Assembly (NCBI RefSeq): GCF_031085155.1 | Contig: NZ_JAVHUL010000003.1 | Span: 1-64,000 of the forward strand | From: Mesonia profundi | GTDB lineage: Bacteria > Bacteroidota > Bacteroidia > Flavobacteriales > Flavobacteriaceae | Reading direction: 5' to 3' | DNA length: 64,000 nt | Shown: positions 4,551 to 60,165 of the stretch, piece after piece | Layout: every line of letters begins with the position of its first letter | Position numbering within the stretch: the first letter of the stretch is position 1 | Made by a program: the position numbers and the translations under genes | The notes under the pieces: generated by a model | Seen by the model: only the letters and a program-made list of their open reading frames with translations | What the model was told of the DNA's origin: nothing | The model's database searches: none

Positions 4551-6048
4551 CACTTGGAGAGACGAGGATCTTTTGCAGATGAAAGCAAAAGGAATAGCGG
4601 TAGAGCAGGTAGAGAAACAATTGCAAGAATTTGAAAGAGGAATTGCTTTTGAGAATTTAAAAGCTCCAGCTTGTATTGGAAGCGGAATTATGAAACTAGA
4701 TGATAATCAGCTTCAAAGTTGGGTGGATCGTTTAGAAAAGGCTTCCGTAAAGAAAGTGAAGTTTATTCCCGCCAGTGGAGCAGCAACCCGAATGTTTAAG
4801 AATTTATTTTTCTTTTTAGAAGAATTTGATTCCGAAAAGGAGAGCCTGCAAGAGTTTATTGCCAGAACGCGTAAGAATGAATTAACCAAGTTTTTTCATC
4901 AGCTAGAGAAGCTTCCTTTTTATGAAGAAGTAATCGATTATGCGCAATTAGACAAAAAGTCAAACCTAGATGATTTGGCATTTCCTTTTGTTCAAAATTT
5001 ATTAAATGAAGCTAATTTAGGCTACGGAAGTTACCCTAAAGGTTTGGTGCCTTTTCATAAGTATAGAGATGAAATTCTAACCGCTTTCGAAATTCATTTC
5101 TTAGAAGCGATGAATTATACTCAAAATGAAGAGGTGGCTCATTTGCATTTTACGGTGGCCAAAAAGCATCTTGATAAGTTTGAAAAAGCACAAGCCCAGA
5201 TAGAAAAGAAGTATCCCGAGAATGATTTTTGTGTGGACTATTCCTATCAACAGGAAAATACAGATACACTGGCGGCAACCATAGACAACCAACCTTTTCG
5301 AGAGAAAAATGGAGAAATCCTGTTTAGACCAGGAGGTCACGGCGCTTTAATCGAAAATCTTAATCAAGTAGAAGCCGATCTTGTTTTTATAAAAAACATA
5401 GACAATGTATGTGTACACGAATATTTGAATGAGATTGTTGATTATAAAAAAGCCCTTGGCGGAATTTTATTAGAAATTCAAGAAAAAGTGTTTCAGGTTT
5501 TAAAGAAAATCGATGCAAAAGATCCTGAAGCTTTAGCCGAAGCTAACCAACTTTTGTCTTCTTGTTTTCATTCAGAAGAACAAATTAAAAGTTTTACGGA
5601 AGCGAAAGAACTTCTAAACCGTCCTATTCGCGTTTGTGGAATGGTGAAAAATGAAGGCGCTCCCGGTGGTGGTCCGTTTTGGGTATTGGATGCCGCAGGA
5701 AAAGCATCATTACAAATTGTAGAAGGAGCACAAATCGATGCTAATAATAAGAGTCAGCAAGATATTGCTGCAAAAGCGACGCATTTTAATCCGGTAGATT
5801 TAGTGTGCGGATTAAAAAATTACCAGGGTGAGAAATTTGATTTATTAGATTTTGTAGATGCTTCGAAAGGATTTATTTCAGAGAAATCTAAAGACGGAAA
5901 AGCTTTAAAAGCTTTAGAACTTCCAGGTTTATGGAATGGTGCGATGGCGCATTGGAATACTATTTTTGTAGAAGTGCCTTTGGTTACTTTTAATCCGGTG
6001 AAAACAGTAGTCGATCTATTAAAAACATCACACCAACCTCAAACTTAA
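4540..6048 (+). CDS. DUF4301 family protein, putative nucleotidyltransferase-like
   Basis: This 502-residue protein is of a family I recognise as DUF4301, confined mostly to Bacteroidetes and without an assigned reaction. The segment VKFIPASGAATRMFKNLFFF (about residues 73-92) resembles the glycine-rich nucleotide-binding loop of sugar-phosphate nucleotidyltransferases, and EILFRPGGHGALIENLN around 261-277 and VKNEGAPGGGPFWVLDAAG around 368-386 are conserved-looking glycine-rich loops. That similarity is my inference. It sits at the end of the vitamin uptake operon, overlapping the kinase gene by 11 bases, and arfB follows after one base. Confidence 0.75.
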   Translation: MESNTWRDEDLLQMKAKGIAVEQVEKQLQEFERGIAFENLKAPACIGSGIMKLDDNQLQSWVDRLEKASVKKVKFIPASGAATRMFKNLFFFLEEFDSEKESLQEFIARTRKNELTKFFHQLEKLPFYEEVIDYAQLDKKSNLDDLAFPFVQNLLNEANLGYGSYPKGLVPFHKYRDEILTAFEIHFLEAMNYTQNEEVAHLHFTVAKKHLDKFEKAQAQIEKKYPENDFCVDYSYQQENTDTLAATIDNQPFREKNGEILFRPGGHGALIENLNQVEADLVFIKNIDNVCVHEYLNEIVDYKKALGGILLEIQEKVFQVLKKIDAKDPEALAEANQLLSSCFHSEEQIKSFTEAKELLNRPIRVCGMVKNEGAPGGGPFWVLDAAGKASLQIVEGAQIDANNKSQQDIAAKATHFNPVDLVCGLKNYQGEKFDLLDFVDASKGFISEKSKDGKALKALELPGLWNGAMAHWNTIFVEVPLVTFNPVKTVVDLLKTSHQPQT

Positions 6049-6049
6049 T

Positions 6050-6454
6050 ATGTTTTCTAAAGAAGAACTCGTAAAGGAAGTAGATTTTAAAGCGGTGCTT
6101 AGCGGTGGTCCAGGAGGGCAGCATGCCAACAAGACGAGCACGAAAGTAGTGCTGAGTTGGAGCTTAGAAAATACTCAACTCTTTACGGAAGAAGAAAAAG
6201 AACGTTTACAGGATAAGTTATCGGCTAAGCTTACCAAAGAACAAGTGCTTCAGCTTTCTTCAGATCACAGTAGAAGTCAGCATAAAAACAAGGAAGTAGT
6301 TATTAAAAAGTTTTTAAAACTCATAGAGCAAGGTCTTCATATTCCGCGGAAGCGTAAAAAAACAAAACCGAGTAAGGCTTCCAAAAAGAAGCGCTTAGAA
6401 AATAAAAAACGAAAATCTCAATTAAAAGTCAATCGCAAAAAACCCAAATTGTAG
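6050..6454 (+). CDS. arfB: Ribosome-rescue peptidyl-tRNA hydrolase ArfB
   Basis: It releases ribosomes stalled at the end of broken mRNAs by hydrolysing peptidyl-tRNA. The 134-residue protein carries the catalytic loop LSGGPGGQHANKTSTKVVL (GGQ at about residues 22-24) and a long lysine/arginine-rich tail (RKRKKTKPSKASKKKRLENKKRK) that threads into the empty mRNA channel. Length and layout are normal for ArfB/YaeJ and distinguish it from RF1/RF2. It is translationally coupled to the DUF4301 gene (one base between stop and start) and is the last gene of the operon. Confidence 0.93.
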   Translation: MFSKEELVKEVDFKAVLSGGPGGQHANKTSTKVVLSWSLENTQLFTEEEKERLQDKLSAKLTKEQVLQLSSDHSRSQHKNKEVVIKKFLKLIEQGLHIPRKRKKTKPSKASKKKRLENKKRKSQLKVNRKKPKL

Positions 6455-6475
6455 TTTTTAGATTTAAAAGTGTGT

Positions 6476-6508
6476 AAAAATTCTACAGTCAACTGTAGAA
6501 TTTTTTAT
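6476..6508 (+). terminator. Intrinsic terminator after arfB
   Basis: A 9-bp stem (6481-6489 with 6492-6500) is preceded by A5 and followed by T6, which fits the end of the 3141-6454 operon. Confidence 0.85.
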
Positions 6509-6694
6509 TTTCTACAAGTAGCATCAATGTCTCAAATAGATGTGACAATAGTGTAGAAGGTTTATTTTTAGGGGTTTGATTTGTTTTAAGTGTTTTCGAA
6601 ATTCTGTGGCATAGTATTCCTATTGTATTAATTGAAATTAACCAACAAAGAATAACCAACTAAAACTTTAATTTAAAAACTAAAACAGAAGATT

Positions 6695-7012: not shown

Positions 7013-7056
7013 ACCCGAAAGAAAATTAACTACCCCCAGTTAATTAGATTGAGATG

Positions 7057-7090: not shown

Positions 7091-7148
7091 TGATAAATTT
7101 GAGGCAGACTATTAAGCTTATTAATAGATTTGTAAAAAAATACTTTTC

Positions 7149-8516: not shown

Positions 8517-10933
8517 ACTTCTTTTTTGATTTCTTCTAATAAGTTTTCTAAGGCTTTTTTAGCCTTCTCTAGCATCGTCATCACTTCTTCTGCTTGCAGG
8601 TTATGTTGTTGCTGGTGCTCTAATTTTTCAAAGAATACGACCACTTTTTCGGCTTTTAATTGACGCAGCATAGGTAAGACTCTGTGTGCGATAAAGGCAA
8701 TTTGTTGAAGATTCGCTTCCGCGGAAGCTTTTCTTAAAGCGTCTAAATTTTGCTGAGAACTTTCTATAAAACTATTCAAAATCACTTTTAAGGAATCTCG
8801 ATCTCCTTCGGTGAACCGAAGTAATTCCGACACATCATAAGACTCGGAAGATTTTGCAAGCTTTTCTTTTACCAAACTTCTAGACACTTCCAAATCAAGA
8901 ATATTGGCAATTTCTAAGTAAAGTTCGTTCGCATTAAAAGGTTTTATAAAGTTGGTCGTAAACCCTTTTTTGAGGTAGATTTCATCGGGGACATCGGTTT
9001 TTCCAGATAATGAAATAACCGGAAGCGTTTTAAATTTAGGAATCTTCCGCAGCTTTCTAATCAATTCAAAACCGTTCATTTTTGGCATTTGTATATCGGT
9101 AATCACCAAATCAAAGACTTGCTTTTTTAGAATCTCCAAAGCCTCTTTTCCGTCTTTGGCAGTCGTTACCTTAAACCCAGCTTGAGAAATTACTTCTTTG
9201 GTGAGCATTAGCTGCGACGGTTCATCGTCAATAATCAAAACTCTTTGTCCTTGCGTGTTTTTGATAGAGATTTCTTCGGTTTCAATACTGGTTTGTGAAG
9301 TGGTTTCTATGGGGAATTCAATATAGAAAGTGGTTCCTTTATCCAGTTCACTCTCCATACGTATGCTTCCCTTAAGTAGATCAACAATCTTTTTTGTGAT
9401 TGCTAAGCCTAACCCAGAACCGCCATATTGCTTTTCGATTCGAGAATCGGCTTGGGAGAATTCTTCAAAGATATTTTTTTGTTGTTCTTGAGAAATGCCA
9501 ATCCCAGTATCGCTAATTTCTATATGAAGTTTTTTTATTTTTCTAGTCTTGGAAGCAATAGAAGCTTTGATGTGAATACTGCCTTCTTCCGTAAATTTAT
9601 AGGCGTTGCCCAATAAGTTAGTTAACACTTGCTGAATCCTAAAAGGATCGCTCATAAAAGTTTCTTCTGTGGTTTTGTCTAAGGAAGTGTGAATCACCAA
9701 GTTGTTTTTGATACTCGTAGGGATACTGGTCTGGATGCTATCTTCAATAATACTTTTAGGCTGAAAAGGTAGTTTTTCTATGGTCATTTTTCCAGCTTCG
9801 AGTTTTGAAAAATCCAAAAGGTCGTTCACCAAATGCAAAATATAGAAAGAGGATTTTTTAAGATGATCCAAGTGATATTGCTGCTTGTCAGATAAAGAGG
9901 TTTTCTTCAGTAAATCTGCGTAGCCCATAATCGTATTTAGGGGAGAGCGTAAATCATGGGTTACCGTCGCCATAATTTGTTTTCTTCTTTTGAGTAAGAA
10001 TTCCGCGTAAGCTTTACTTTTTTCCAACTCCTCTTTGTAACGCTGGCTACTATTGGTGTCTCTAATAATGAGGACAACAAAAAAAATAATCGTAAGAATA
10101 CAAGCAATTCCCAATACGGCAATGATGGTTGCTGTCTCCTCGATTACGGCACTAGAATTGTTTACCTGCTCCACCGATTTTTGTATTTGCTCTCGCTCCA
10201 TCTCCGACCTGATTTTTCTTAACTGTGAAGAAAGTTCTTGGTCATTTTTTAGTAGTTCATTCTCTTTTTTAATCACCTCTTGTTGATACCTTCGTTCTTC
10301 AACTTCGAGCTCACTCAGCACGTTTTTTACGGTGTTAATCAAGGAGTCTGCCGACTGTTGCGTTAATCTTTGTGCGTTGTCTTTCTTGGCGTATTCCAAC
10401 CATTTCACCATCGCATGTCTGGCTTCGGGATTGTAATCTTTAAGAAGCTCATTGTAATTGTCTTCTTCAAATAGATAATTTACTTTTTGAAGATTGTTGA
10501 GCACGCGATCATAATAATTCTCACTCGAATTGTTTTTTCTCACTTTTAGGAGTTCGTGCAAGTTTTGCTCTTTAAGAAGCAAAAGGTTTTGCAAACTATC
10601 CAGCTCGTTTATAATTTCATTCTCTTTATAAACTTGTTGAAGATTTTTTATGAGAGAAGAAATAGTGTCTAATTGTTGCTTAAATTGAGGTAAGTTTTCG
10701 GGCTTTTGATTTTGAATAATGTCCCTACTAATGGCTTCGGCAGCGTATACATTGGTCACGGCCTCATTCATGAGTAACAATTTTTGTTGGTTATCGTTGC
10801 TTAGTTTATTAGCGCTGTTTAAACCAATCACATTGCTGTAAATAAACCAAATAGAAATAGCGGTAAAGGCAGTTAAAAGGAGGTATCCTATAACAACTTT
10901 AAAGGTGATGGAGCGTTTGGTATTTCTAGGCAT
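8513..10933 (-). CDS. Hybrid sensor histidine kinase with receiver and Hpt-like domains
   Basis: This inner-membrane signalling protein has about 806 residues. In order it has a transmembrane helix (near residues 14-35), a long helical extracytoplasmic region, a second membrane helix (IIAVLGIACILTIIFFVVLII, near 270-290), and a HisKA domain with the phospho-acceptor in TVTHDLRSPLNTIMGYADLL. These are followed by an HATPase (ISDTGIGISQEQ, GGSGLGLAITKKI), a receiver (VLIIDDEPSQ, DLVITDIQMPKMNG) and a C-terminal Hpt-like helix bundle with FIAHRVLPML. I chose ATG 10933 (MPRNTKRSITF) over the upstream in-frame ATG at 10966, which adds only a hydrophobic tail. It is convergent with the NtrC-type regulator, overlapping by 4 bases at the stop codons. 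Confidence 0.92.
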   Translation of the reverse strand: MPRNTKRSITFKVVIGYLLLTAFTAISIWFIYSNVIGLNSANKLSNDNQQKLLLMNEAVTNVYAAEAISRDIIQNQKPENLPQFKQQLDTISSLIKNLQQVYKENEIINELDSLQNLLLLKEQNLHELLKVRKNNSSENYYDRVLNNLQKVNYLFEEDNYNELLKDYNPEARHAMVKWLEYAKKDNAQRLTQQSADSLINTVKNVLSELEVEERRYQQEVIKKENELLKNDQELSSQLRKIRSEMEREQIQKSVEQVNNSSAVIEETATIIAVLGIACILTIIFFVVLIIRDTNSSQRYKEELEKSKAYAEFLLKRRKQIMATVTHDLRSPLNTIMGYADLLKKTSLSDKQQYHLDHLKKSSFYILHLVNDLLDFSKLEAGKMTIEKLPFQPKSIIEDSIQTSIPTSIKNNLVIHTSLDKTTEETFMSDPFRIQQVLTNLLGNAYKFTEEGSIHIKASIASKTRKIKKLHIEISDTGIGISQEQQKNIFEEFSQADSRIEKQYGGSGLGLAITKKIVDLLKGSIRMESELDKGTTFYIEFPIETTSQTSIETEEISIKNTQGQRVLIIDDEPSQLMLTKEVISQAGFKVTTAKDGKEALEILKKQVFDLVITDIQMPKMNGFELIRKLRKIPKFKTLPVISLSGKTDVPDEIYLKKGFTTNFIKPFNANELYLEIANILDLEVSRSLVKEKLAKSSESYDVSELLRFTEGDRDSLKVILNSFIESSQQNLDALRKASAEANLQQIAFIAHRVLPMLRQLKAEKVVVFFEKLEHQQQHNLQAEEVMTMLEKAKKALENLLEEIKKEV
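8715..8728. repeat. Example of a dispersed GC-rich palindromic word
   Basis: GCTTCCGCGGAAGC, a perfect 14-bp palindrome inside the hybrid kinase gene. Exact or one- to two-base variants recur across the window in unrelated genes and on both strands (see findings). Confidence 0.6.
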
Positions 10934-14487: not shown

Positions 14488-14928
14488 TTAATTTCTTACA
14501 TTCAGTAAGCCGTTACCATTTTGAACCACGCGGTATCTAAATAAAGGATATCTTAAATTTTCTTCGTCTCCTTCAACCACTCCGCCTGTAAATAAGTCGT
14601 AGGTATTGCCTTCACAACCGCAAAAGATGTGAATACCGTTCAGCTCCATGGCTACACATTCATTTTTTCTAGGATGATTGGGATCGGCGGCATCGAAAGC
14701 GACAAAGGAGTCGGCTCCATTTTTCATAATCACGATACCTGCATTTCCATAATTGGGAACATAAACAGGACTAGAAGGAAAATTAAGGCTATTGTATTGT
14801 GGTAAGCTTAAATCGATTTGGAAGTTGACATTCACATCCAATAAATTAGGATTGTTGTTAAGCGTATCATCACTGCTGCAGGCGGTGATCACGGAAAGAA
14901 ATAAAATTCCGATAAGGAGTTTTTTCAT
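14488..14928 (-). CDS. Lipoprotein with a degenerate Rieske-like domain
   Basis: About 146 residues from the ATG at 14928 (MKKLLIGILFLSVITAC). The lipobox Cys near residue 16 is followed by SSDD, typical of flavobacterial lipoproteins. The mature part ends in FVAFDAADPNHPRKNECVAMEL...HIFCGCEGNTYDLFTGGVVEG, which aligns by eye with a Rieske [2Fe-2S] fold. The usual CxH box is replaced by DPNH and the usual CPCHG by CGCEG. The cluster ligands are thus incomplete, so it may bind no cluster. The upstream in-frame ATG at 14952 was not chosen because the signal peptide fits the later one. It shares a bidirectional terminator with the T9SS gene. Confidence 0.75.
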   Translation of the reverse strand: MKKLLIGILFLSVITACSSDDTLNNNPNLLDVNVNFQIDLSLPQYNSLNFPSSPVYVPNYGNAGIVIMKNGADSFVAFDAADPNHPRKNECVAMELNGIHIFCGCEGNTYDLFTGGVVEGDEENLRYPLFRYRVVQNGNGLLNVRN

Positions 14929-15566: not shown

Positions 15567-15597
15567 AAAAACTAAGCTTTACGGAAGCAAAATAAGA

Positions 15598-15656: not shown

Positions 15657-16625
15657 CTAACAGCAACCGCCACCATCATAATGATACGTAGATTCACTGA
15701 AGAAAATATCATCTCTATCTAAGCTTTTTAAAGCCTCAGTTGTTTTGTCACAAATGGCGATAGGCTGATTTTTAAGTAAAATGTGCCCTTCTTTATCATC
15801 AAAAAAATCTTCATCACCGTAATAAATAGCTGCTTTTCCCGTAAAAATACAAGGTCCGTCTTTGGGCATAGGGTCCTTAATGGCAGCCACTTCTATACTT
15901 TCAATATAGATAAGCTCGTCTGTAGGATAGTTTTTGGGATCTAAAATTCGATAGGGTTTCTTGGCTCTTATTTCTATGGTTCCAAAACCAGCATCAGTAA
16001 GCATTTTTACATATTCTTTTAAGGGAAGGCTTCCGCTTAAGCAAAGGGCACGCAAACGTTCGTCATTCCGTAAAGTATCATTCATTTCTTGCTCACAAAT
16101 AGGATCGCTCATGACCAATCTTCCGTGAGGCTTTAGCACACGATACATTTCGGCAATCGCCATTTTAAGTTCTTCAGTTTTAAAAATATTGAATAAGCAA
16201 TTTTGAGCGGCAACATCAATACTTTCATCTTCTACAGGTAAATTTAACGCATCTCCTTTACGTAAATCTACAAATCCCGACTTGAACCAAGGATTAACTT
16301 CCTTGGCTTCCTTAAAATTTTTGCGAGAAGCTTCCAGCATTTCATCTACCACATCAATCCCAATTACGCCTTGTTCTTGTCTAGAAAAGTACGCAAATTG
16401 TAAAAGCTCCATTCCGCCACCCACACCAACATATAATGTTTTGGGTTGGTTGGCTAAATCTCTTGCATGAACGGTACTGCCACAGCCGTAGTTCATTTCT
16501 TGCATAATTTTCGGGATTTTTAAGCCCGGTAATTCCCAAACAGGATTGGTGGTACAGCATAAACCTACATCTGGGCTAAGTGCTGCATCTTTATAAACGT
16601 TTTTAGTAGTTTCTAAATAGCTCAT
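15657..16625 (-). CDS. arsM: Arsenite methyltransferase, arsenosugar-biosynthesis type
   Basis: It probably methylates arsenite using S-adenosylmethionine. The 322-residue protein opens with VYKDAALSPDVGLCCTTNPVWELPGLKIPKIMQEMNYGCGST, whose CC and C are typical arsenic-binding cysteines of the arsenosugar-type ArsM. It continues with the SAM loop LYVGVGGGMELLQFAYF and IGIDVVDEMLEASR, and DPICEQEM later. It ends in YHYDGGGCC, a further thiol pair. An ATG at 16625 is preferred over the GTG one codon earlier. It is last in a four-gene operon with purine nucleoside phosphorylase, a TIGR04282 glycosyltransferase and a rhodanese, an arrangement I know from arsenosugar biosynthesis loci. The radical SAM partner ArsS is not in the window. 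Confidence 0.88.
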   Translation of the reverse strand: MSYLETTKNVYKDAALSPDVGLCCTTNPVWELPGLKIPKIMQEMNYGCGSTVHARDLANQPKTLYVGVGGGMELLQFAYFSRQEQGVIGIDVVDEMLEASRKNFKEAKEVNPWFKSGFVDLRKGDALNLPVEDESIDVAAQNCLFNIFKTEELKMAIAEMYRVLKPHGRLVMSDPICEQEMNDTLRNDERLRALCLSGSLPLKEYVKMLTDAGFGTIEIRAKKPYRILDPKNYPTDELIYIESIEVAAIKDPMPKDGPCIFTGKAAIYYGDEDFFDDKEGHILLKNQPIAICDKTTEALKSLDRDDIFFSESTYHYDGGGCC

Positions 16626-17439: not shown

Positions 17440-18039
17440 TTATAATAAATTCATTAGTGTGGGGTGCTTTTGCATATCTTCATATTCGTCAATATCGTTA
17501 AGTGTCTCCAACAAAGTTACAGATTTATCTCCCATACTGCTTAAGGTATCGTTAAATACGCTGGGAGTGCTCCAATTTTTATTTTCAAAAATTTCTTTAC
17601 GGAAGCTTTTCATGCCTAATAAATAATAACCACCATCTTCTGCAGGGCCTAACACGAAATCGGTTTCATCCAGCTTTGTAAACGCATCTTCAACGCGTGC
17701 TGCGTTGAGATCTATTAAATCGCTGCCTAGAATGAGAATTTTATTGTAGCCTTTTTGAAAGCCTTCCGCGAAAGCGTAAGCCATACGTGCTCCTAAATTT
17801 TCACCTTGCTGAGCCTTTTTCGTATAATATCTAGGGTTCCAAATATCATTTTCTAAGGGTTGGGTGGCATACCAAACTTGCTTTTCTGCATTTATATTTT
17901 TGGTGACATTCGCCGTGTGTTGAAGCAAATAAGAATACACTTCTAAGGCTTTTTGATCTCCGATTTTTTGGGCAAGACGGGTTTTACATTTTCCCAATTC
18001 TGGGTGTCTAGTAAAGAGTAGTAATAAGTTTTTAGACAT
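17440..18039 (-). CDS. TIGR04282 arsenosugar-type glycosyltransferase
   Basis: The 199-residue protein is of the GT-A fold (DUF2064/TIGR04282 family), which includes enzymes associated with arsenosugar biosynthesis. Motifs seen: LLFTRHPELGKCKTRLA (nucleotide loop), GENLGARMAYAFAEGFQKGYNKILILGSDLIDL (metal-binding acidic residue in GSD), and VLGPAEDGGYYLLGM. It probably transfers a sugar or polyol headgroup, but the donor is not known from the sequence. Its start codon directly follows the rhodanese stop, and its stop lies one base from the PNP start. Confidence 0.85.
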   Translation of the reverse strand: MSKNLLLLFTRHPELGKCKTRLAQKIGDQKALEVYSYLLQHTANVTKNINAEKQVWYATQPLENDIWNPRYYTKKAQQGENLGARMAYAFAEGFQKGYNKILILGSDLIDLNAARVEDAFTKLDETDFVLGPAEDGGYYLLGMKSFRKEIFENKNWSTPSVFNDTLSSMGDKSVTLLETLNDIDEYEDMQKHPTLMNLL

Positions 18040-33898: not shown

Positions 33899-34585
33899 TT
33901 GAATGTCTTTAACGATTTTTTAGAATTTGTTTTTCCTAAAGCTTGTGTTTGCTGCGGAACAGCATTACTGGAGGAGGAAAAAATGATATGCCTGTATTGC
34001 AGGTATCAGCTTCCTACGACCAACTTTCACTACCAAAACGAAAATACTGCTAAAAAAGTATTCTATGGTAGAATTCCTTTGGTAAACATAACTTCTCTTT
34101 TTGTCTTTCACAAAAAAAATATGACACAAAAGCTTCTGCATCAATTAAAATATAAGGAAAAAGAAGAAATTAGTTTTGTTTTGGGAGATTGGTTAGGAGA
34201 AGAGTTAAAAACCGTTGCTTGGGCAAAAGCCTTCGATATAGTGATTCCGGTACCTTTACACGCGAAGAAATTGAGAGAAAGAGGTTACAACCAAGTGGCT
34301 GGCTTTGGAGAGAATTTGGCGAAACATTTGGGTTGTTCTTATTCCGATAAGGTATTGGTAAAAGAAACCCCATCGGCGACACAAGTGTTTAAAAATAGAA
34401 GTGCGCGTGCCGAAATGAAACACGATTTATTTAAACTTCAAAATGAAGCTTTAATCGCTAATAAACATATTCTTTTGGTAGATGACATTATTACTACAGG
34501 GACTACCTTAGAAACTTGTGCTCAAATATTGTTGCAAGCTCCAAATCTGCAACTAAGCATTGCGACGATGGCGATTACTTTATAA
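33899..34585 (+). CDS. comF: ComF family phosphoribosyltransferase-like protein
   Basis: The 228-residue protein has an N-terminal zinc ribbon (FPKACVCCGTALLEEEKMICLYCRYQLP, two CxxC pairs) and a phosphoribosyltransferase domain with PRPP loop ILLVDDIITTGTTLETCAQIL and VIPVPLHAKKLRERGYNQVAGF. ComF proteins support natural transformation in competent bacteria; in others the role is unclear. The start is TTG, forced by the absence of an upstream ATG in frame. It is divergent from the coiled-coil gene. Confidence 0.9.
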   Translation: MNVFNDFLEFVFPKACVCCGTALLEEEKMICLYCRYQLPTTNFHYQNENTAKKVFYGRIPLVNITSLFVFHKKNMTQKLLHQLKYKEKEEISFVLGDWLGEELKTVAWAKAFDIVIPVPLHAKKLRERGYNQVAGFGENLAKHLGCSYSDKVLVKETPSATQVFKNRSARAEMKHDLFKLQNEALIANKHILLVDDIITTGTTLETCAQILLQAPNLQLSIATMAITL

Positions 34586-43558: not shown

Positions 43559-44455
43559 ATGAAAATACCAGCAAAACTTAATCAAGGAGACCAAATTGCC
43601 ATCGTCGCCACAGCTAGAAAAGTAACTCCAGAAGAATTGCAACCCGCAATTTCTCTTCTAAAATCTTGGGGTTTAGTTACTATGATGGGATCTAGCATTG
43701 GACTGGAAGAACATCAATTTGCTGGAACTGATCAAGAGCGGACGGCAGATTTGCAACAACAAATGGAGGATCCCAACATCAAAGCGATTTGGTGTGCTAA
43801 GGGAGGTTATGGAACGGTGCGAATTTTAGATTTACTCGATTTTTCTAACTTTTCAAAAAATCCAAAATGGATTGTGGGTTATAGCGATGTTACCGCCTTG
43901 CATTCTCAAATCAATAACTTAGGAATATCTACCTTACACGCACAGATGTGTTTGGGTGTAGAAACCAAAAGTGAAGCGAGCCGAGAAACTTTAAGGAAAG
44001 CTTTATTTGGAGAAGATTTCGATTATCATTTTCCGTCTTCGGAATTCAACAGAAAAGGCGTTGCTAAGGGAGAACTTGTAGGGGGAAATTTGTCGGTTCT
44101 TTTTTCCCTTATCGGAAGTGAATCGGATTTAGATCTGAAAGGAAAAATTTTGTTTCTAGAGGATTTGGATGAATATCTTTACCATATCGACCGAATGATG
44201 CAAAACCTGAAACGTAACGGCTGGTTTGATCAAATTAGCGGCTTGATTATTGGCGGAATGAATGATATGAATGACAATACTGTTCCTTTTGGCAAAACCG
44301 CAAAGGAGATTATCGCCGAAATCACGGCCGAATACGATTTTCCAGTAGCTTTTAATTTTCTTGCGGGACATATAGAAGACAATCAAGCCTTAATTTTGGG
44401 AAGAAAAGTAAGATTGCAAGTGGAGGCTAAGGAGAGTCACGTGAGCTACTTTTAA
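43559..44455 (+). CDS. LD-carboxypeptidase (S66 family)
   Basis: It removes the terminal D-alanine from recycled tetrapeptides in murein recycling. The 298-residue protein has the serine nucleophile loop WIVGYSDVTALHSQI and acidic/His partners in LFLEDLDEYLYHIDRMMQNLK and FLAGHIEDNQAL. The fold fits LdcA/MccF. ATG 43559 is preferred over an upstream TTG. No signal peptide, as expected for the cytoplasmic enzyme. Confidence 0.92.
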   Translation: MKIPAKLNQGDQIAIVATARKVTPEELQPAISLLKSWGLVTMMGSSIGLEEHQFAGTDQERTADLQQQMEDPNIKAIWCAKGGYGTVRILDLLDFSNFSKNPKWIVGYSDVTALHSQINNLGISTLHAQMCLGVETKSEASRETLRKALFGEDFDYHFPSSEFNRKGVAKGELVGGNLSVLFSLIGSESDLDLKGKILFLEDLDEYLYHIDRMMQNLKRNGWFDQISGLIIGGMNDMNDNTVPFGKTAKEIIAEITAEYDFPVAFNFLAGHIEDNQALILGRKVRLQVEAKESHVSYF

Positions 44456-46661: not shown

Positions 46662-48743
46662 TTGAAATCACCATTTTTTCTTTACGGATTTGTTTTCGTT
46701 ATCTTTTCTTGTTGGAATGCTCAAGCGCAAAAATACCAAGATAGTACGCTGTTGGATCAGGTTATTTTGAAAGCACCTAGTTTGCAAGGAGAACTCACTA
46801 AAACCCCAGCTGCGGTAAATCTCTTAGAAACACCCGAACTCAACCGAGGATCAACCAACCTGCTCACCGAAATTTTTAATCGGATTCCCGGAGTTTATAC
46901 GCAAGCGGGCGCTTTAAATACCAATAGAATTACGATTCGGGGGATTGGTTCTAGAGCACAATATGGCACTAATCGCGTGAAAGCATATTTTAGCGAAATC
47001 CCGTTAAGCACAGGTGACGGAGAAACCGTTTTGAACGACATTGATTTAGAAGCGGTAGATCGTGTAGAAATTATTAAAGGACCCAATTCTAGTCTGTACG
47101 GCTCTGGTTTAGGCGGCGTGATTCAAGTGATGCCTTTTCAGTCTAGCGAGAATCAATCTTTTACCAAACTTTCTAGTGTTTTTGGGAGTTATGGATTGCA
47201 AAAGCAAACGGCGAGCTTAGGATATGCGAAGAAAAATGCTTCGGTTTTTGCGAGCTACAACCATTTAAAGCAAGAAGGTTATCGGGAAAATGCCGATTAT
47301 GATCGAAAAACTTTTCATCTTAATAGCAGTATTCAAATTTCAGAAAAGTCTCAACTTCATATTTTAGGAAATTTCACGCGCTTAAAAGCTTATATCTCGA
47401 GTTCGATCAGTTTGTCGGTATTTAAAGAAAATCCGCGGCAAGCTGCTTTTACTTGGAAAACTGCTCAGGGTTATGAATCTTATGACCGTTTTCTGCTAGG
47501 AATTTCTTACGAATACCAATTTTCAGAGAAATTAGCGCAAACTACCAGTTTCTTCACTAATTATAAAGATGCTTACGAGCCTCGACCTTTCGATATTTTA
47601 AAACAAAAAGCCTATAATCTAGGCGCACGAACGCGTTTTACGTATCGAGATCAGGTGTTTCAACTTCCTATAAAAGCCAGTATTGGGGCAGAGATTCTTC
47701 AGGAGAATTACTCGGGTAGCAATTTTGAAAATTTATACGAAGAGTTTCCTAATCAAGGAAGTGTGCGTGGAGTAATGATTAGCAATCTTGAGCAAAACCG
47801 TAATTATTACAATGTTTTTGCGCAAGGAGAACTCCAAGTTTTACCAAAATTAAAGTTGGTTGGCGGGCTCAATATCAACGCGACCAATTACACGTTAACC
47901 AATCTCTTTACGGAAGAAGTCGCAACGCCCACAAGTGAAGGGAAATTTGAAAGCATTGTAGCTCCGCGAGCAGCAGCCTTGTACGAAATCACTCCGCAGA
48001 AAAATGTGTATATAAATCTAAGCAAAGGATTTTCTATTCCCACGGTGGACGAAACTTTGACTCCGCGAGGGAATATCAACAACACGTTAAAACCAGAAAT
48101 AGGATGGAATTATGAACTCGGTTTTAAAGGCTCTTGGGAGAAAAATTTATATATCGAATTGGCTTTGTATAGCATTCAAGTGAGTGATTTACTCGTGGCC
48201 GAACGTGTAGAAAATGATCAATATATAGGAAAGAATGCGGGAAAAACCAATCATAATGGCTTAGAGTTTTTATTAAGATACAACTGGAATTTAAACCAAA
48301 ATTTTCAGTTTCAAACTTACGCTTCCGCGGAATTAAATGCGTATTCCTTTGATGATTTTAACGATGAAGGAGAAGACTTTAGCGGTAATGAATTAACCGG
48401 AATGCCAGATCATAAAATTAACCTTGGAGTAGATGCCGTTATTTTTAAACATTTCAGCTTAAATACCAATGCGCTTTGGGTTGCTGAAATTCCTCTGAAT
48501 GATGAAAATTTGGTCTATAGCGATGCTTATCAATTGCTGAATCTAAAAGCATTTTATCGTTTACAGTTGCTTCCGAAAATTGAGATGGATTTTAATCTAG
48601 GTATAAATAATGTACTAAACGAAAGCTATGCGGCAAGCATTCTTCCCAATGCGGTTGGTTTTGGAGGGAAAGAATCTCGGTATTTCTACCCTGGTAACAA
48701 TCGGAATTTTTACGGCGGATTAAGTTTGAGTTATAAACTTTAA
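46662..48743 (+). CDS. TonB-dependent outer-membrane receptor
   Basis: The 693-residue receptor starts at a TTG with signal peptide SPFFLYGFVFVIFSCWNAQAQ and lacks the N-terminal beta domain of SusC-like proteins. It goes straight to a plug (TPAAVNLLETPELNRGSTNLLTEIFNRIPGVYTQAGALNTNRITIRGIGSRAQYGTNRVK, VEIIKGPNSSLYGSGLGGVIQV) and a barrel ending NRNFYGGLSLSYKL. Its size is close to PqqU of E. coli and its position beside a PQQ-type dehydrogenase suggests PQQ uptake, which is an inference. A siderophore or other small substrate is the alternative. Confidence 0.88.
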   Translation: MKSPFFLYGFVFVIFSCWNAQAQKYQDSTLLDQVILKAPSLQGELTKTPAAVNLLETPELNRGSTNLLTEIFNRIPGVYTQAGALNTNRITIRGIGSRAQYGTNRVKAYFSEIPLSTGDGETVLNDIDLEAVDRVEIIKGPNSSLYGSGLGGVIQVMPFQSSENQSFTKLSSVFGSYGLQKQTASLGYAKKNASVFASYNHLKQEGYRENADYDRKTFHLNSSIQISEKSQLHILGNFTRLKAYISSSISLSVFKENPRQAAFTWKTAQGYESYDRFLLGISYEYQFSEKLAQTTSFFTNYKDAYEPRPFDILKQKAYNLGARTRFTYRDQVFQLPIKASIGAEILQENYSGSNFENLYEEFPNQGSVRGVMISNLEQNRNYYNVFAQGELQVLPKLKLVGGLNINATNYTLTNLFTEEVATPTSEGKFESIVAPRAAALYEITPQKNVYINLSKGFSIPTVDETLTPRGNINNTLKPEIGWNYELGFKGSWEKNLYIELALYSIQVSDLLVAERVENDQYIGKNAGKTNHNGLEFLLRYNWNLNQNFQFQTYASAELNAYSFDDFNDEGEDFSGNELTGMPDHKINLGVDAVIFKHFSLNTNALWVAEIPLNDENLVYSDAYQLLNLKAFYRLQLLPKIEMDFNLGINNVLNESYAASILPNAVGFGGKESRYFYPGNNRNFYGGLSLSYKL

Positions 48744-50053: not shown

Positions 50054-51964
50054 TTACAAAGTACCTTTTAACCAATTAAAAAATTCGTGTTGCCATACCA
50101 AGGCATTTTGAGGTTCTAAAACCCAATGATTTGCTTCGGGGAGGTATAACAATTTGCTTTTTAAACCAAGCAATTGTGCTGCTTGGTAGGCTCCCAAACC
50201 TTGCTCAATAGGTACTCGATAATCTTTTCCTCCTTGAATAATAAATATAGGCGTATCCCATTTAGCCACGTGATTGATGGGATTAAACTTTCCATACGTG
50301 TTTTGAGCATCCTCATTCTCTTTTTCCCAATAGGCACCTCCAAAATCATGGTTGACGAAAAATAATTCTTCGGTGGTTCCATACATGCTTCTGGTGTCAA
50401 AAACACCGTCGTGAGCAATAAAAGTTTTAAAGCGTTTGTTATGCATTCCGGCAAGGTAAAATACAGAATAGCCTCCAAAGCTAGCGCCTACGGCTGCCAT
50501 CCTGTTTTCATCTATAAAAGATTCTTTGGATAATTCATCTGTAGCGCTGAGGTAATCGTTTATTACTTGTCCGCCCCAATCTTTACTAATCGCTTCGTTC
50601 CACTCCACGCCGTGTCCTGGCATTCCTCTACGATTTGGTGCAATCACGACATAACCTTGAGAAGCCATCAATTGAAAATTCCATCTAAAGGAGTAGAATT
50701 GAGAAAGTGGCGATTGAGGTCCGCCTTGCGCATACACCAAGGTTGGATACTTTTGGGTGACATCAAAATTAGGCGGTAAAATAAGCCATACCAGCATTTT
50801 TTTTCCATCGGTGGTGGTTACATAACGCTTTTCGACTTTGGGTAGATCCAAGCTTTTATAAACTTCATCATTAATGTGGGTGAGTTGTGTAAAGCTTTTC
50901 GTTTTCAAATCGAAAGTAAATAACTCTGCTGCATGATTCATATCGGTTCGCGTTACGAAGAGCTTATTCTCTTTTTGCAGCACGATACTTTTTACATCAA
51001 AATCCCCTTTAGAAAGTTGTTTTACTTGGGGCATTTTTCGTTTTTTGCCGGGATAATCCACTTCAAACAATTGGATAGTACCATCTACTGGAGCCGTAAA
51101 ATAAGCGCTTTTAGCATCTTTATTCCATGTAAAGCTAGAAACCGTACCATCCCATTGTGCGGTTAAATTCTGCTTTACACCATCTTTTAAAATGATGATA
51201 TCATTTTTGTCGGCCTCGTAGCCTTCGGTTTTCATTTGTAAATAGGCGAGCGCTCCGTCTTTAGAAAAGGCAGGTTGCATGTCATAACCTTTATTTTCTT
51301 CCGTAAGGTTTTCGGTATTTTTTGTTTTAAGGTTGTACTTGTAAATATCAGTATTGGTGCTTTGTGCGTATGCCTTCCCTTTTACTTTCTTGCTTACGTA
51401 ATAAATGTGTTCGCTATCTGGACCCCAAATATAATCTTCATCCCCGCCAAATGGGCGCTGTGGACTATAATAAGGCTCCTCTGGCATCACATCGATACCT
51501 TCCTCCTCTTTGGCGTCTTTTGCTTTGTAGAAAACATGGCTATAAGTACCGTCATTCCACGTATCCCAGTGTCTAATATCCAAATCGGTATATACATAAG
51601 CATTGGATTTGGGTAGATTTTTATAACGATTTTTTCCCGTTACCTCTTCTATACGTACTGTTTTGTCAAAGAGCTCATATTTTTTATTAGGAGAAATGTT
51701 CTTGGATACTACCTCTACGGCATCTTCGCTAATTTTGGTAGCAGAACCGCCTGTAATGGATATTTTATAAAACTCGGTGTCAAAGTTATTCTCTTCTACA
51801 TTAGGAATTTTTAATTTGTAATAGATATTCTTTTGGGCTTCATCTACGCCCATTACACTTAAACGCTTTAGGCTCCATAAGGTTTCTGGGGTCATTTTTT
51901 GCTGACTCATAACTAGGTTGGTACTCAATATTAAACTTAAAATAACTAGACTTGTTCTCATCAT
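50054..51964 (-). CDS. S9 family prolyl-oligopeptidase-type peptidase
   Basis: It cleaves dipeptides or short peptides in the periplasm or outside. The 636-residue protein has a signal peptide (MMRTSLVILSLILSTNLVMSQ), an N-terminal beta-propeller region, and a C-terminal alpha/beta-hydrolase domain. The nucleophile is in AAVGASFGGYSVFYLAG (Ser in GASFGG), with Asp in PIFIIQGGKDYRVPIEQG and His in LLYLPEANHWVLEPQN, so the triad is complete. It resembles acylaminoacyl- or dipeptidyl-peptidase (DPP5-like). A TAACTTTG element lies 37 bases upstream. Confidence 0.93.
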   Translation of the reverse strand: MMRTSLVILSLILSTNLVMSQQKMTPETLWSLKRLSVMGVDEAQKNIYYKLKIPNVEENNFDTEFYKISITGGSATKISEDAVEVVSKNISPNKKYELFDKTVRIEEVTGKNRYKNLPKSNAYVYTDLDIRHWDTWNDGTYSHVFYKAKDAKEEEGIDVMPEEPYYSPQRPFGGDEDYIWGPDSEHIYYVSKKVKGKAYAQSTNTDIYKYNLKTKNTENLTEENKGYDMQPAFSKDGALAYLQMKTEGYEADKNDIIILKDGVKQNLTAQWDGTVSSFTWNKDAKSAYFTAPVDGTIQLFEVDYPGKKRKMPQVKQLSKGDFDVKSIVLQKENKLFVTRTDMNHAAELFTFDLKTKSFTQLTHINDEVYKSLDLPKVEKRYVTTTDGKKMLVWLILPPNFDVTQKYPTLVYAQGGPQSPLSQFYSFRWNFQLMASQGYVVIAPNRRGMPGHGVEWNEAISKDWGGQVINDYLSATDELSKESFIDENRMAAVGASFGGYSVFYLAGMHNKRFKTFIAHDGVFDTRSMYGTTEELFFVNHDFGGAYWEKENEDAQNTYGKFNPINHVAKWDTPIFIIQGGKDYRVPIEQGLGAYQAAQLLGLKSKLLYLPEANHWVLEPQNALVWQHEFFNWLKGTL

Positions 51965-52443: not shown

Positions 52444-52488
52444 GCGGTTATTTTACTTTTAGCCTTTAAACAATTCCGTAAAGAAAAA

Positions 52489-55400
52489 TTAAACCTTTTC
52501 TGCTACAGCTTCTTTCGGTTTTAGCGGCTGTAAAACTTCTAAGGCTCTTTCTACCGTGGTCACTTTATCAAAGGTAAGTAAAAGACGTAAGCCTTTACGG
52601 GTGTCTTTTTCTTTCATGATGCATTGTTGCGGATGACTTTGCACAAATTGCAAAACCTTCGTAAAGGTGGTGGTTTGATAAAAAGCCGATTGCTGATCTG
52701 CGATGAAATAACCAACCATCTTGCCTTTCTTTAGAATGATTTTTTCAATCCCAATCTGCGAAGCAATCCACTTTATACGCACGCTATTTAATAAATCTAC
52801 GACCTCTGTAGGTAATTCTCCAAAACGATCTTTTAGTCCCACTTCAAATTCTTGTAGTTCTTCTTCGGTAGTTAATTCGTTGAGTTTGGTATATAAATTT
52901 AAGCGCTCACTAATGTTGTTCACATAATCATCGGGGAAAAGAATTTCAAAATCGGTGTCAATCTGCGTTTCTTTTACAAACACCTTATTTTCTGGCTTCT
53001 CTTGATCGGCGTACAAGTCTTTAAACTCATTTTCTTTTAGCTCATCAATAGCCTCACTCAATATTTTTTGGTAGGTATCAAAGCCTATTTCATTGATAAA
53101 GCCACTTTGCTCGCCTCCTAATAAATCTCCGGCACCCCGAATTTCTAAATCTTTCATCGCGATATTAAAGCCGCTACCCAATTCAGAAAATTGCTCTAAA
53201 GCGCTAATGCGTTTCCGAGCATCATCGGTCATCACCGAATAAGGCGGAGTGATAAAATAGCAAAAAGCTTTTTTATTGCTTCGTCCCACGCGTCCTCGCA
53301 TCTGATGCAAATCTGATAAACCAAAATTATTGGCGTTATTGATAAAAATGGTATTGGCGTTGCTTACATCCAAACCGCTTTCTACAATGGTGGTAGAAAT
53401 CAACACGTCAAATTCATTATTCATAAAACTCAACATCAGCTTTTCGAGTTTCTTACCTTCCATTTGGCCGTGACCTACGCCAATTTTCGCATCGGGAACC
53501 AAACGCTGTAGCATTCCGGCCACTTCTTTAATGTTTTCGATGCGGTTATGAATAAAAAATACTTGTCCGCCTCGCTGAATTTCATACGAAACCGCATCGC
53601 GAATCGTCTCTTCAGAAAAACGAATCACGTGGCTTTCTATAGGATAACGGTTGGGTGGAGCCGTATTAATGGTGCTTAAATCCCGCGCCGCCATTAAACT
53701 GAATTGCAAGGTACGCGGGATAGGCGTTGCTGTAAGCGTAAGCGTATCTACATTTTCTTTGATGGTCTTTAATTTGTCTTTTACTGCCACGCCAAATTTT
53801 TGCTCCTCATCTACAATCAGCAGGCCTAAATCTTTAAACTTGACGTTTTTATTCACTAACTGGTGTGTTCCAATAATGATGTCTATTTTCCCGTTTTCCA
53901 GTTCCTCGAGTACTTGTTTACGCTCTTTGGCGGTTCTAAATCTATTTAGGTAATCTACAGATACTGGTAAATCTTTTAAGCGTTCCGTAAAGGTTTGTTG
54001 ATGCTGAAAAGCTAAAATTGTAGTAGGCACCAAAACCGCTACTTGCTTGCCATTATCTACCGCTTTAAAAGCCGCCCTAATGGCAACCTCGGTCTTTCCA
54101 AAACCTACATCCCCACATACCAAACGGTCCATAGGGCGTTCACTTTCCATGTCTTCTTTTACCGCTTGGGTAGACGTGCTTTGGTCTGGCGTATCTTCAT
54201 AGATAAATGAAGCTTCCAATTCATGTTGCAAATACGAATCGGGGCCAAAAGCAAATCCTTTTTCCAGGCGTCTTTTGGCATACAACTCAATTAGATTGTA
54301 GGCAATATGCTTTACGCGAGCTTTGGTTTTATTTTTTAAAGTCTTCCAAGCTTTGCTTCCAAGCTTATAGATTTTTGGCGGTTTCCCATCTTTCCCATTA
54401 AACTTAGAGATTTTATGAAGCGAATGAATGCTAACGTATAAAATATCCCGCTCCCCATACATCAACTTGATGGCTTCTTGTTGTTTTCCTTCGACATCTA
54501 TTTTTTGGAGTCCGCCAAATTTCCCAATTCCGTGATCAATATGCGTTACATAATCGCCCACTTCCAGATTCGTCAATTCCTTTATGGTGATGGCCTGTTT
54601 CTTGGCATACCCATTTTTAAGATGGAATTTATGGTAACGTTCAAAGATTTGATGATCTGTATAGCAAACGGTTTTGGTATCCTCTTCCACAAAACCTTGA
54701 AACATAGAAAACACGATGGTTTTATAATGCACCTCTTCCCCTTGGTCTTCAAAAATGTCGTGAAAGCGTTTAGCTTGTTGGGCACTCACACAAAAAATAG
54801 TGTTGGTATACCCTGCGGAATGGTTTTGTCTAAGGTTTTCTATGAGTAGGTCAAAATTCTTGTTAAAAGAAGGTTGAGGTTTGGTATGAAATTCTATTCG
54901 CTGCTGCGGATTTAAATACGCCTGACTACCAAATTCTACGGTAGAAAATTCATCCAGTTGCTGCTGAATTTCTTGGGTACTGCAAAACAATTCTTTTGGT
55001 TCGCTATGCTTGATATCTTCAGAAAGATTCTGAAAAGCTTCTTCGGCCTTACCGAATAATTTATCGAGTTCTGCGCCTAATAAATCGAGATTTTTAATGA
55101 AAACGACGGTTTTATTCGCGATATAATGTAAAAAACTATCCCTAATTTCTTCTAGGCGTTTGTTTTCTACATTCGGCATCACCGAAATTTTCTTCACCTT
55201 TTCTGTAGAAAGTTGCGTTTCTACATCAAAACTACGAATACTATCTACTTCATCCCCAAAAAACTCTATGCGATAAGGTTCATCGTTGCTAAAAGAAAAT
55301 ACGTCAATAATTCCTCCCCGCACCGAAAAATCCCCAGGTTCAGTTACAAAATCTACGCGTTTAAATTTGTATTCAAACAACACCTCATTCACAAAATCTA

Positions 55401-55964: not shown

Positions 55965-56288
55965 CTACAACAAAGCTTTAATCGCAACATCGGTAATGGT
56001 ATTGATGACTTTGTTTTTAAAAATACCCAGTCTAATTTTTGAGATTCCTGCACTGTATAAAGTATGCATCAAAAAAAGATCTTTTTGGCTTTTTAAAAGC
56101 CATTCATATTCTGCGGGAGTGATGAGTTCTTCCGCCAAGAGGAACGTCCATTTTCTGAGTTTTTCTCTAGCATCTTCTAAAAATTGGGTAACGGTGTCTT
56201 CTCCGGCTTTTGAAAAGTCAGCGTATTGTTCTCTTACCAGAAGCAAGAGGCTGTTGCGCATTTCTTTTAATAGTTCTTCAAAATCCAT
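55965..56288 (-). CDS. Small helical protein of unknown function
   Basis: The 107-residue protein is not recognised. It is mostly amphipathic helix (FEELLKEMRNSLLLLVREQYADFSKAGEDTVTQFLEDAREKLRKWTFLLAEELITPAEYEWLLKSQKDL) with a hydrophobic C-terminus (VINTITDVAIKALL). There is no signal peptide. It begins two bases after the upstream lipoprotein gene ends and is the last gene of the amidase unit. A lysis-cassette role is only inferred from context. Confidence 0.65.
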   Translation of the reverse strand: MDFEELLKEMRNSLLLLVREQYADFSKAGEDTVTQFLEDAREKLRKWTFLLAEELITPAEYEWLLKSQKDLFLMHTLYSAGISKIRLGIFKNKVINTITDVAIKALL

Positions 56289-58674: not shown

Positions 58675-58815
58675 ACGGGAAGAAACTTCTCTCTAAAATA
58701 CTTCTTTTTGATGAGTTTACCATTCAGAAATGACTATAAAAGTCGTTTTTTACCATTTCCATAACAGCCAAAACCTAGTAATACTCGTATCTTTTGTTTT
58801 TAAAAATTTAGACAC

Positions 58816-60165
58816 ATGAAAGAGTACGATGTATTGGTTATAGGAACAGGAACTGCGGGAAAAACCGTGGCTAAAGCTTGTGTAAAAGCAGGAAAAAAAG
58901 TGGCTATTGCCGATAATCGCGAATTTGGCGGTACTTGCGCCAACAGAGGTTGTGACCCTAAAAAAGTACTCGTGGGGCTTTCGGAAATATTGGATCGCTC
59001 ACAAAAAATGATGGGAAAAGGGATTACCAAAATGCCCGAGTTTAGCTGGGAAGATTTACAGCAATACAAAAGAAAGTTTGTAGATGCTGTTCCCGCTGCG
59101 ACAGAAAGTGATTTGAAGGCTTTAAGTATTCATATGTATCATCAGTCGCCTCAGTTTTTAGATGAAAACACACTTTCTGTAGAAGGAAAAACCGTACGTG
59201 CGAAAAAGATTGTGATCGCGACAGGAAATAAACCACTCGAATTGAAAATTCCTGGAAGAGATCTGGCTTTGCTTAGCGATGATTTTCTAGATCTCCCCAA
59301 ACTACCCGAAAGCATGATTTTTATTGGCGCAGGTTATATTGGGATGGAGTTTGCTCATATTGCCGCGAGAATGGGCGTAAAAGTAACTATGATAGATATG
59401 TCCCCGAGACCGCTTACCAATTTTGATGAAGCCATTGTAAACCCTTTAACCCAAGCTTCAAAAGATTTGGGAATTGAGTTTATTTTTAACGCCGGAGTGA
59501 GTAAAGTTGAAAAATTGCAGAAATACTTCCGCGTAAGCGCAAAACAAGGCGATAAAATTATTGAAGCTAAAGCTGAATTGGTGTTTAACACCGCCGGTAG
59601 AGTGCCTTCTATAGATGAATTAGACTTAGAGAAAGGAAACGTAAGCTTTACCAAAAAAGGGGTGAGTGTAGATAAACACCTGCAAAATCCCAGCAATAAA
59701 AATGTCTATGCTTGCGGCGATGTGTCAGATAGTGAAGGCTTGCCTTTAACTCCGCTGTCATCCCAAGAAGCCAAAGTAGTGATCTCGCAGCTCATTGGGA
59801 AAAGCGTAAAGGAAGAAGCTACATACCCACCACAACCATCGGTGGTGTTTACAAGTCCGCAATTGGCATCTGTCGGACTTTCAGAAGCCGAGGCTAAAGC
59901 AAAAGGATATGAAATTGTGGTAGAAGAAAAAATGGATCTGAATTGGTTTAATGCCAAACGTATTAACGAACGTCATTATGGTTATAAAACCATTGTGGAC
60001 AAGAAAACCAAAAAGATTTTGGGCGCTCATATTATAAGTCCGGAGGCTGGCGGAATCATTAATTTATTTACGATAGCCATTTGCAGCGGACTGACGTGCG
60101 AGGATTTGAAAGCCATGATTTTTGCTTATCCTACTTGGGGAAATGATATTAAGGGGATGGTTTGA
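58816..60165 (+). CDS. FAD-dependent pyridine nucleotide-disulfide oxidoreductase
   Basis: The 449-residue flavoprotein of the glutathione reductase/mercuric reductase group has an FAD loop (YDVLVIGTGTAGKTVAKACVKAGKKVAIAD), redox disulfide (GGTCANRGCDPKKVLVG, Cys41 and Cys46), a NAD(P) loop (SMIFIGAGYIGMEFAHIAARMGVKVTMID) and a dimer domain (PPQPSVVFTSPQLASVGLSEAEAKAKGYEIVVEEKMDLNWFNAKR). The C-terminal HPTxxE base is replaced by FAYPTWGNDI. The substrate is unclear: it is neither a dihydrolipoyl dehydrogenase with HPT motif nor a MerA with a metal-binding head. It is divergent from the patatin. Confidence 0.9.
   Translation: MKEYDVLVIGTGTAGKTVAKACVKAGKKVAIADNREFGGTCANRGCDPKKVLVGLSEILDRSQKMMGKGITKMPEFSWEDLQQYKRKFVDAVPAATESDLKALSIHMYHQSPQFLDENTLSVEGKTVRAKKIVIATGNKPLELKIPGRDLALLSDDFLDLPKLPESMIFIGAGYIGMEFAHIAARMGVKVTMIDMSPRPLTNFDEAIVNPLTQASKDLGIEFIFNAGVSKVEKLQKYFRVSAKQGDKIIEAKAELVFNTAGRVPSIDELDLEKGNVSFTKKGVSVDKHLQNPSNKNVYACGDVSDSEGLPLTPLSSQEAKVVISQLIGKSVKEEATYPPQPSVVFTSPQLASVGLSEAEAKAKGYEIVVEEKMDLNWFNAKRINERHYGYKTIVDKKTKKILGAHIISPEAGGIINLFTIAICSGLTCEDLKAMIFAYPTWGNDIKGMV

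Follow-up and report, generated by a model that had tools for sequence, protein, structure and literature searches.

The first 64,000 nucleotides of contig NZ_JAVHUL010000003.1 of Mesonia profundi (hereafter the window) carry many copies of a short bipartite word, TTCCG-N2/3-AAG, which belongs to a real, selected word system of the Flavobacteriaceae that is highly iterated and has dialects. The first-pass annotation of the window had described a dispersed palindromic word at 14 positions. The word or a close variant was recovered at all of them, 13 inside called genes and the one at 15576 between genes, and the site at 16029 (TTCCGCTTAAGC) fits neither of the refined classes (spacing 2 and spacing 3) exactly. 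The bipartite word is the better definition, with the palindrome GCTTCCGCGGAAGC as one of its faces: spacing-2 spellings include TTCCGTAAAG and TTCCGTTAAG, the spacing-3 form is TTCCGCGNAAGC, and the unit is mostly non-palindromic in Mesonia. A search of titles and abstract openings, with most subscription journals and preprints outside it, found no paper describing these words.

Abundance and conservation in Mesonia profundi

The k-mer, spacing and codon analyses were made on a 464-kb sample (the window and twenty 20-kb stretches) of the M. profundi assembly (G000; 3,077,385 bases in 76 contigs). The k-mer analysis uncovered a family of related words, and in a scan of the distance between TTCCG and AAG, spacing 2 occurred 140 times against 23 expected (6-fold) and spacing 3 occurred 67 times against 23 (3-fold), with a smaller excess at spacing 0 (40 against 16) and a slight one at spacings 9 and 10 (31 against 20 and 21). 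The 140 spacing-2 fillers include TA (46), TT (27), CT (15), CC (12) and AT (12). Those of spacing 3 are mainly CGG (27), CGA (7) and CGT (7), usually followed by CG, and GCTTCCGCGGAAGC is therefore read as two overlapping spacing-3 words.

In the window, GCTTCCGCGGAAGC with up to three mismatches was found 12 times (mean 1.2 and maximum 5 in 100 dinucleotide shuffles), and GCTTCCG 20 times (4.5, maximum 13, in shuffles). TTCCG-N2-AAG averages 2.6 sites and never exceeds 8 in 200 third-order Markov copies of the window, which itself has 20. The 10 window matches of TTCCGCG-N-AAG fall at 8 places, of which two are palindromic; the Markov copies average 0.17 and reach 2 at most. Throughout the assembly, TTCCGNNAAG occurs 410 + 384 times (794) against 61 + 56 (117) for its reversed control, TTNCGCGNAAGC 137 + 123 times (260) against 4, and TTCCGCGGAAGC 72 + 63 times, the reversed word being absent. 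Together the spacing-2 and spacing-3 forms amount to about one per 2.6 kb.

The annotation had proposed selection on the DNA, to be refuted by a frequency no higher than codon use and dinucleotide bias predict in the full genome; in the 464-kb sample the excess over codon use stands, and selection on the DNA, not on protein or codons, is upheld. Within the genes of the 464-kb sample, called by a crude open reading frame caller (coding fraction 0.89-0.92), 130 spacing-2 words were observed against 15.0 in 30 synonymous-codon shuffles (8.7-fold, the shuffles yielding one ninth), and 38 of the palindromic form against 1.4 (28-fold), the ratios for three control words being 1.2-1.3. Sites lie on both strands and in several frames, and the sense to antisense split of the spacing-2 words in genes (41:89) follows the shuffle null (3.7:11.2) and is thus attributable to codons. 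A codon-usage or dinucleotide artefact was rejected on the dinucleotide shuffles, the k-mer analysis, the spacing scan and the synonymous-codon shuffles.

The words are also conserved in place. In the sister species (G200), itself word-rich and aligned over two regions at identities of 0.775 and 0.805, 28 of 46 spacing-2 matches and 11 of 15 spacing-3 matches (palindromes counted twice) are fully kept, against 26 of 105 for the pooled controls (Fisher p 4e-5 and 4e-4, respectively). The controls were 18 near-miss or wrong-spacing patterns, 17 of which had alignable matches. Flank identity around the words was 0.79 and 0.76. Only 1 of the 46 and none of the 15 sites is gapped in the alignment, so that words are seemingly gained and lost by substitution. 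No shared flank was found around the Mesonia sites, where weak A/T enrichment follows beyond the core, which argues for a word and not a copied repeat.

Strand bias, which the annotation had proposed to check, was not seen in the 464 kb (64 spacing-2 words forward and 76 reverse, p 0.35; leading strand judged from contig GC skew). Core DNA holds 59 places in 145.5 kb and non-core DNA 5 in 26.5 kb, a difference in the expected direction but with p 0.12. The largest wordless stretch in the sample, 29 kb of contig C1 (39782-68805), matches the ribosomal-protein operons in gene sizes and order, on layout evidence only, and the word may be kept out of it by codon selection; the next, of 21 kb, is gene-poor. 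The individual sites of the window are listed in Table 1.

Table 1. Words located in the window and their state in the alignment to the sister species G200.
Feature	Position	Strand	Context and state in G200
Spacing-2 word GCTTCCGTAAAG	4741-4752 (core 4743-4752)	+	in gene 4540-6048 (+); not kept
Spacing-2 word TTCCGAAAAG	4830-4839	+	not kept
Spacing-2 word TTCCGCCAAG	5455-5464	-	kept
Spacing-2 word TTCCGTAAAG	6181-6190	-	not kept
Spacing-3 word TTCCGCGGAAGC	6342-6353	+	kept as TTCCGCGAAAG
Perfect palindrome GCTTCCGCGGAAGC, two overlapping spacing-3 words	8715-8728	.	kept, both strands
Spacing-3 word TTCCGCGTAAGC	10001-10012	+	kept
Spacing-2 word TTCCGATAAG	14907-14916	+	kept
Spacing-2 word GCTTTACGGAAGC	15576-15588	-	intergenic; gap in alignment
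Off-consensus variant GCTTCCGCTTAAGC, listed by the first-pass annotation	16029-16042	+	
Spacing-2 word TTCCGTAAAG	16066-16075	+	kept
Spacing-2 word CTTTACGGAAGC	17595-17606	-	kept
Spacing-3 word CTTCCGCGAAAGC	17763-17775	+	kept
Spacing-2 word TTCCGTAAAG	22584-22593	-	not kept
Palindromic core GCTTCCGCGGAAGG, two overlapping words	24835-24848	.	not kept
Spacing-2 word CTTTACGGAAGC	28128-28139	-	kept
Spacing-2 word CTTTACGGAAGC	29813-29824	-	kept as TTCCGTGAAG
Spacing-2 word TTCCGTTAAG	32416-32425	+	kept
Spacing-2 word TTCCGATAAG	34342-34351	+	kept
Spacing-3 word CTTCCGCGTAAGC	35386-35398	+	kept
Spacing-2 word TTCCGATAAG	44108-44117	-	kept
Spacing-2 word TTCCGTAAAG	47906-47915	-	kept
Spacing-3 word GCTTCCGCGGAATT	48321-48334	-	not kept
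Spacing-2 word TTCCGGCAAG	50446-50455	+	no alignment
Spacing-2 word TTCCGTAAAG	52474-52483	+	intergenic; no alignment
Spacing-2 word TTCCGTAAAG	53983-53992	+	not kept
Spacing-2 word TTCCGCCAAG	56130-56139	+	no alignment
Spacing-3 word CTTCCGCGTAAGC	59526-59538	+	kept
Spacing-2 word TTCCGTTAAG	63068-63077	-	no alignment

Dialects in the Flavobacteriaceae and carriage by phages

Within Mesonia the distribution of the word is patchy and dialect-like. Besides M. profundi, three of the 16 species are rich in TTCCGNNAAG (G200 with 914, G206 with 1176 and G211 with 1261 copies; controls in the four 74-117), two are intermediate (G207, 319 against 92; G201, 205 against 120) and in the other ten the counts stay close to those of the controls. 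For TTNCGCGNAAGC, the same four give high counts (260, 282, 170 and 182 in G000, G200, G206 and G211), as does G207 (207); counts are intermediate in G053, G208 and G212 (76-82) and in G201 (29), and the remaining seven have 1-10 copies. The annotation had grouped the palindrome with the CTTTACGGAAGC form, and the two are indeed high together in the four rich species; G053, G208 and G212 have the palindromic form alone. The preferred spelling differs between species, being the single spelling TTCCGTAAAG in G206 and G211. In two further Mesonia (G209 and G204) we observed 10-mers repeated about 60-100 times in 47-60 kb, where the repetition alone suggests long clustered regularly interspaced short palindromic repeat (CRISPR) arrays.

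In the family as a whole, at least 40 matches to TTNCGCGNAAGC were, by our reading of the counts, found in 16 of 199 genomes, some of them with controls of 11-17, and two genomes, G010 (1245) and G190 (1190), dominate. G010 also holds 586 copies of CTTTCGCGAAAG genome-wide. In a 220-kb sample of this genome the palindrome continues outward as TT.CGCTTTCGCGAAAGCG.AA, flanked by T-rich and A-rich shoulders that give a weak symmetric flank signature, and 38 sites in 200 kb are evenly spaced (mean 5.4 kb; coefficient of variation 0.43, against 0.95 for random placement) and lie between genes in 21 cases, intergenic DNA making up about 10% of the sequence. G190 is milder (coefficient of variation 0.73; 8 of 47 sites intergenic). 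Along its single contig, each of the 34 sampled 20-kb windows (14 contiguous and 20 spread) contained the word, which is under-dispersed (0.66). A general role as terminator was rejected, convergent genes flanking 2 of the 21 intergenic G010 sites against 12 of 119 in the background, which is no excess. One intergenic word of M. profundi (contig C34, about 7790) lies at the centre of a hairpin resembling a terminator, GCATCTTC TTTAC GGAAGATGC, with a run of T after it. G010 also has a second set of over-represented strings around GAAACTAAGAAACTAAG, unrelated to the word. In three genomes with few or no copies elsewhere, CTTTCGCGAAAG sits in islands, as if in DNA from a word-rich donor: G200 contig C4, 359953-374297 (4 of 5 listed places), G012 contig C18, 74148-174391 (7 of 7), and G021 contig C1, 729030-757693 (3 of 3).

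Some phage contigs carry the word as well. A scan of IMG/VR for GCTTTCGCGAAAGC returned at least 120 stretches, most with one copy among the matches listed. Twelve contigs picked for multiple copies have two to four CTTTCGCGAAAG each in the portions examined, where we estimate about 0.001 per contig from base composition; several share identical flanks and are the same phage or close relatives, so that they represent fewer than twelve independent phages. Proteins of four of the twelve match head, terminase, portal or tail families, and the two queried by tblastn were closest to Cellulophaga phage Ingeline. The word was not found in phages Ingeline_1, P2559S, P2559Y and P12024S.

Candidate readers and possible roles

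The annotation had named uptake signals, chromosome-organising sites and methylation targets as possible roles, and in our judgement the first fits best, although we hold it tentatively and at somewhat less than an even chance. By analogy with the uptake signal sequence (USS) of Haemophilus, the word may be a self-DNA signal for uptake and recombination. It would mark the cell's own DNA genome-wide and would be read by a protein: a receptor for DNA on the cell surface, part of the transformation machinery of flavobacteria, would prefer DNA that bears it. Ordinary point mutation would make the copies, and transformation and recombination would keep and spread them, with uptake as the selecting step. 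Uptake signal systems show dialects between relatives. Haemophilus phage HP1 carries 17 USS in 32 kb; carriage by phages of the host group is thus a further likeness to USS and compatible with an uptake signal, and we withdrew it as an argument against uptake. Like USS and the DNA uptake sequence (DUS), the word reaches hundreds to more than 1000 copies. Uptake sequences lack strand bias, are evenly spaced and are enriched between genes, according to the available part of PMC1939737, and the balanced strands in M. profundi and the even spacing in G010 match the first two of these traits and support uptake.

Candidates for the reader come from Riemerella anatipestifer, where the accessible text of PMC8459023 reports that transformation needs ComEC, DprA, ComF, a helix-hairpin-helix protein and others, and also a DUF5689/DUF5017 protein and an adjacent CarboxypepD_reg protein; R. 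columbina prefers its own DNA, as stated in the portion of PMC7965970 at hand. Of these, our searches in Mesonia covered ComEC, DUF5689, helix-hairpin-helix proteins and the barrel. ComEC, DUF5689 and helix-hairpin-helix proteins of 289-308 residues were each matched in all 16 species, and their presence or absence was accordingly set aside as uninformative about a switch. On contig C64 of M. profundi, three genes stand side by side, encoding a nuclease-family protein, a CarboxypepD_reg barrel and a DUF5689 + DUF5017 protein with a lipoprotein-like start (DUF5017, searched in G000 and G207 alone, was not found at threshold in G207). In all 15 species examined, the DUF5689 gene shares its stretch with a CarboxypepD_reg-type barrel, which directly adjoins it in all nine mapped, and this DUF5689 surface protein and outer-membrane barrel would be the putative reader. 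One DUF5689 and barrel type is common to the four TTCCGNNAAG-rich species: DUF5689 identity to G000 is 69% in G200, 55-60% in the other rich species and G199, and 30-45% in the other ten of the 15. This link between receptor type and word-richness is suggestive, with two rich lineages and one counter-example, G199. The barrel is a weak discriminator in the family, since its model matched something in 199 of 199 genomes; matches at E = 0 occur in all 16 genomes with at least 40 words and in about 134 of the 199 by hand count. Two side observations concern the same genes. The ComEC frame of word-poor G204 is shorter (535 open codons, against 672-684 in the other 15 Mesonia), and a second, weaker DUF5689 protein, with a Por_Secre_tail sorting domain in M. 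profundi, is encoded on the comEC contig of G000 (C12, 112103-112420) and most other Mesonia.

Several results weigh against an uptake signal. One control pattern, TTACG-N2-AAG, is kept in the sister species in 6 of 10 cases, as often as the real word, the remaining patterns ranging from 0 to 5 of 14. The machinery matched in word-rich species is matched equally in word-poor ones, G199 shares the receptor type of the rich species while being word-poor, and the four rich species represent two lineages only. Structure prediction for the DUF5689 protein (mean predicted local distance difference test score 73.9) led to generic adhesin and carbohydrate-binding matches alone. In Mesonia the words are clumped (coefficient of variation 1.30). 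In M. profundi only 10 of 140 spacing-2 sites are intergenic (p 0.22), and the intergenic enrichment given for uptake sequences in the part of PMC1939737 consulted is missing there, although G010 shows it (21 of 38 sites) and G190 has 8 of 47 sites between genes. The word further departs from USS and DUS in being bipartite, with two spacings and palindromic doubles, and in the different uptake machinery.

Copies with a single mismatch (one-off copies) are likewise scarcer than for USS and DUS. The available sections of PMC1939737 give 438 perfect and 947 one-off copies (86 expected) for the uptake sequence, and 5648 and 1830 for the 10-mer of the cyanobacterial highly iterated palindrome HIP1. 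By this yardstick, the one-off copies in excess of expectation do not outnumber the perfect ones in G206 (38 perfect, 47 one-off, 15.2 expected), G211 (32 and 32, 12.4 expected), G190 (47 and 20) or G010 (42 and 3). CTTCCGCGGAAG in M. profundi has 12 perfect and 13 one-off copies (1.4 expected). The Mesonia spectra thus lie between the uptake sequence and HIP1, and G010 falls outside this range on the HIP1 side; a single mechanism may not account for both. TTCCGTAAAG in M. profundi (46 perfect, 110 one-off, 57 expected) has an uptake-like look that we dropped as support because in at least 41 of the 110 one-off copies the mismatch falls within the two free positions, which makes them spacing-2 words themselves, and this slightly lowered our estimate for an uptake signal.

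A rather unlikely alternative is that a protein of nucleoid architecture, segregation or chromosome compaction binds the words across the whole chromosome. The even spacing, intergenic placement and symmetric shoulders in G010, the near absence of one-off copies there, and the under-dispersion and occupancy of every sampled window in G190 all favour such sites. The chromosome-organising sites matS, Noc and KOPS are similar: short protein sites, palindromic or directional, distributed over chromosomes. The words are far more numerous, and unlike matS or Noc sites they showed no domain restriction or exclusion among the 34 sampled G190 windows; this uniform placement in a related complete genome weakens the chromosome-organising option of the annotation. 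The clumping in Mesonia also speaks against it, and the near absence of the word from close relatives is hard to fit with a basic chromosomal function.

We consider it unlikely that the word, in the manner of HIP1, is made or kept by a methyltransferase-linked bias of mismatch repair and has little function of its own. The highly iterated, sporadically distributed GC-rich palindromes of G010 and G190, with their simple palindromic unit, resemble HIP1 and the alternate HIPs of cyanobacteria described in the accessible part of PMC4390886, their one-off copies are fewer than the perfect ones as for the HIP1 10-mer in the PMC1939737 excerpt, and the word is found on phage DNA too. However, its sequence is different, and the commoner Mesonia unit, TTCCG-N2-AAG, is non-palindromic, its two-spacing form being unlike the HIPs in that part of PMC4390886. 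The C5 DNA methylase family (PF00145), the only one searched, N6 and N4 enzymes lying outside the search, had no match in G000, G206, G211, G205 or G053 and is present in the other 11 of 16 Mesonia, including G200 and six of the seven word-poorest species. Three of the four word-rich Mesonia thus contradict C5 methylation as an explanation, and with it the C5 part of the methylation-target option of the annotation.

A Chi-like recombination signal read by AddAB or RecBCD appears improbable. Like Chi sites, the word is short, non-palindromic and mainly genic, its density would suit such a signal, and a related word occurs on some phage contigs, but it lacks orientation bias, has two spacings and palindromic doubles, and is patchy within one genus, being nearly absent from close relatives. 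Small mobile palindromic repeats, whether miniature inverted-repeat transposable elements (MITE) or like repetitive extragenic palindromes (REP), or a codon-usage artefact, are highly improbable: the copies are dispersed and some lie between genes, but the Mesonia sites have no conserved flanks, those not kept in the sister species differ by substitution, and codon shuffles did not reproduce the counts.

To our knowledge, firmly established uptake signals are confined to two bacterial families. It is doubtful, though conceivable, that the word represents the first uptake-signal system in Bacteroidota, bipartite with two spacings, read by a DUF5689 protein and barrel, with dialects set by receptor type, and copied by phages. 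If it is an uptake signal, self-DNA recognition would exist in another phylum and use other machinery; otherwise, the Flavobacteriaceae would hold a large set of highly iterated words. Mesonia makes both the uptake-signal question and that of what selects HIP1-like words directly testable, through patchy dialects in one marine genus, sister species that are rich or poor in the word, and a candidate pair of receptor proteins.

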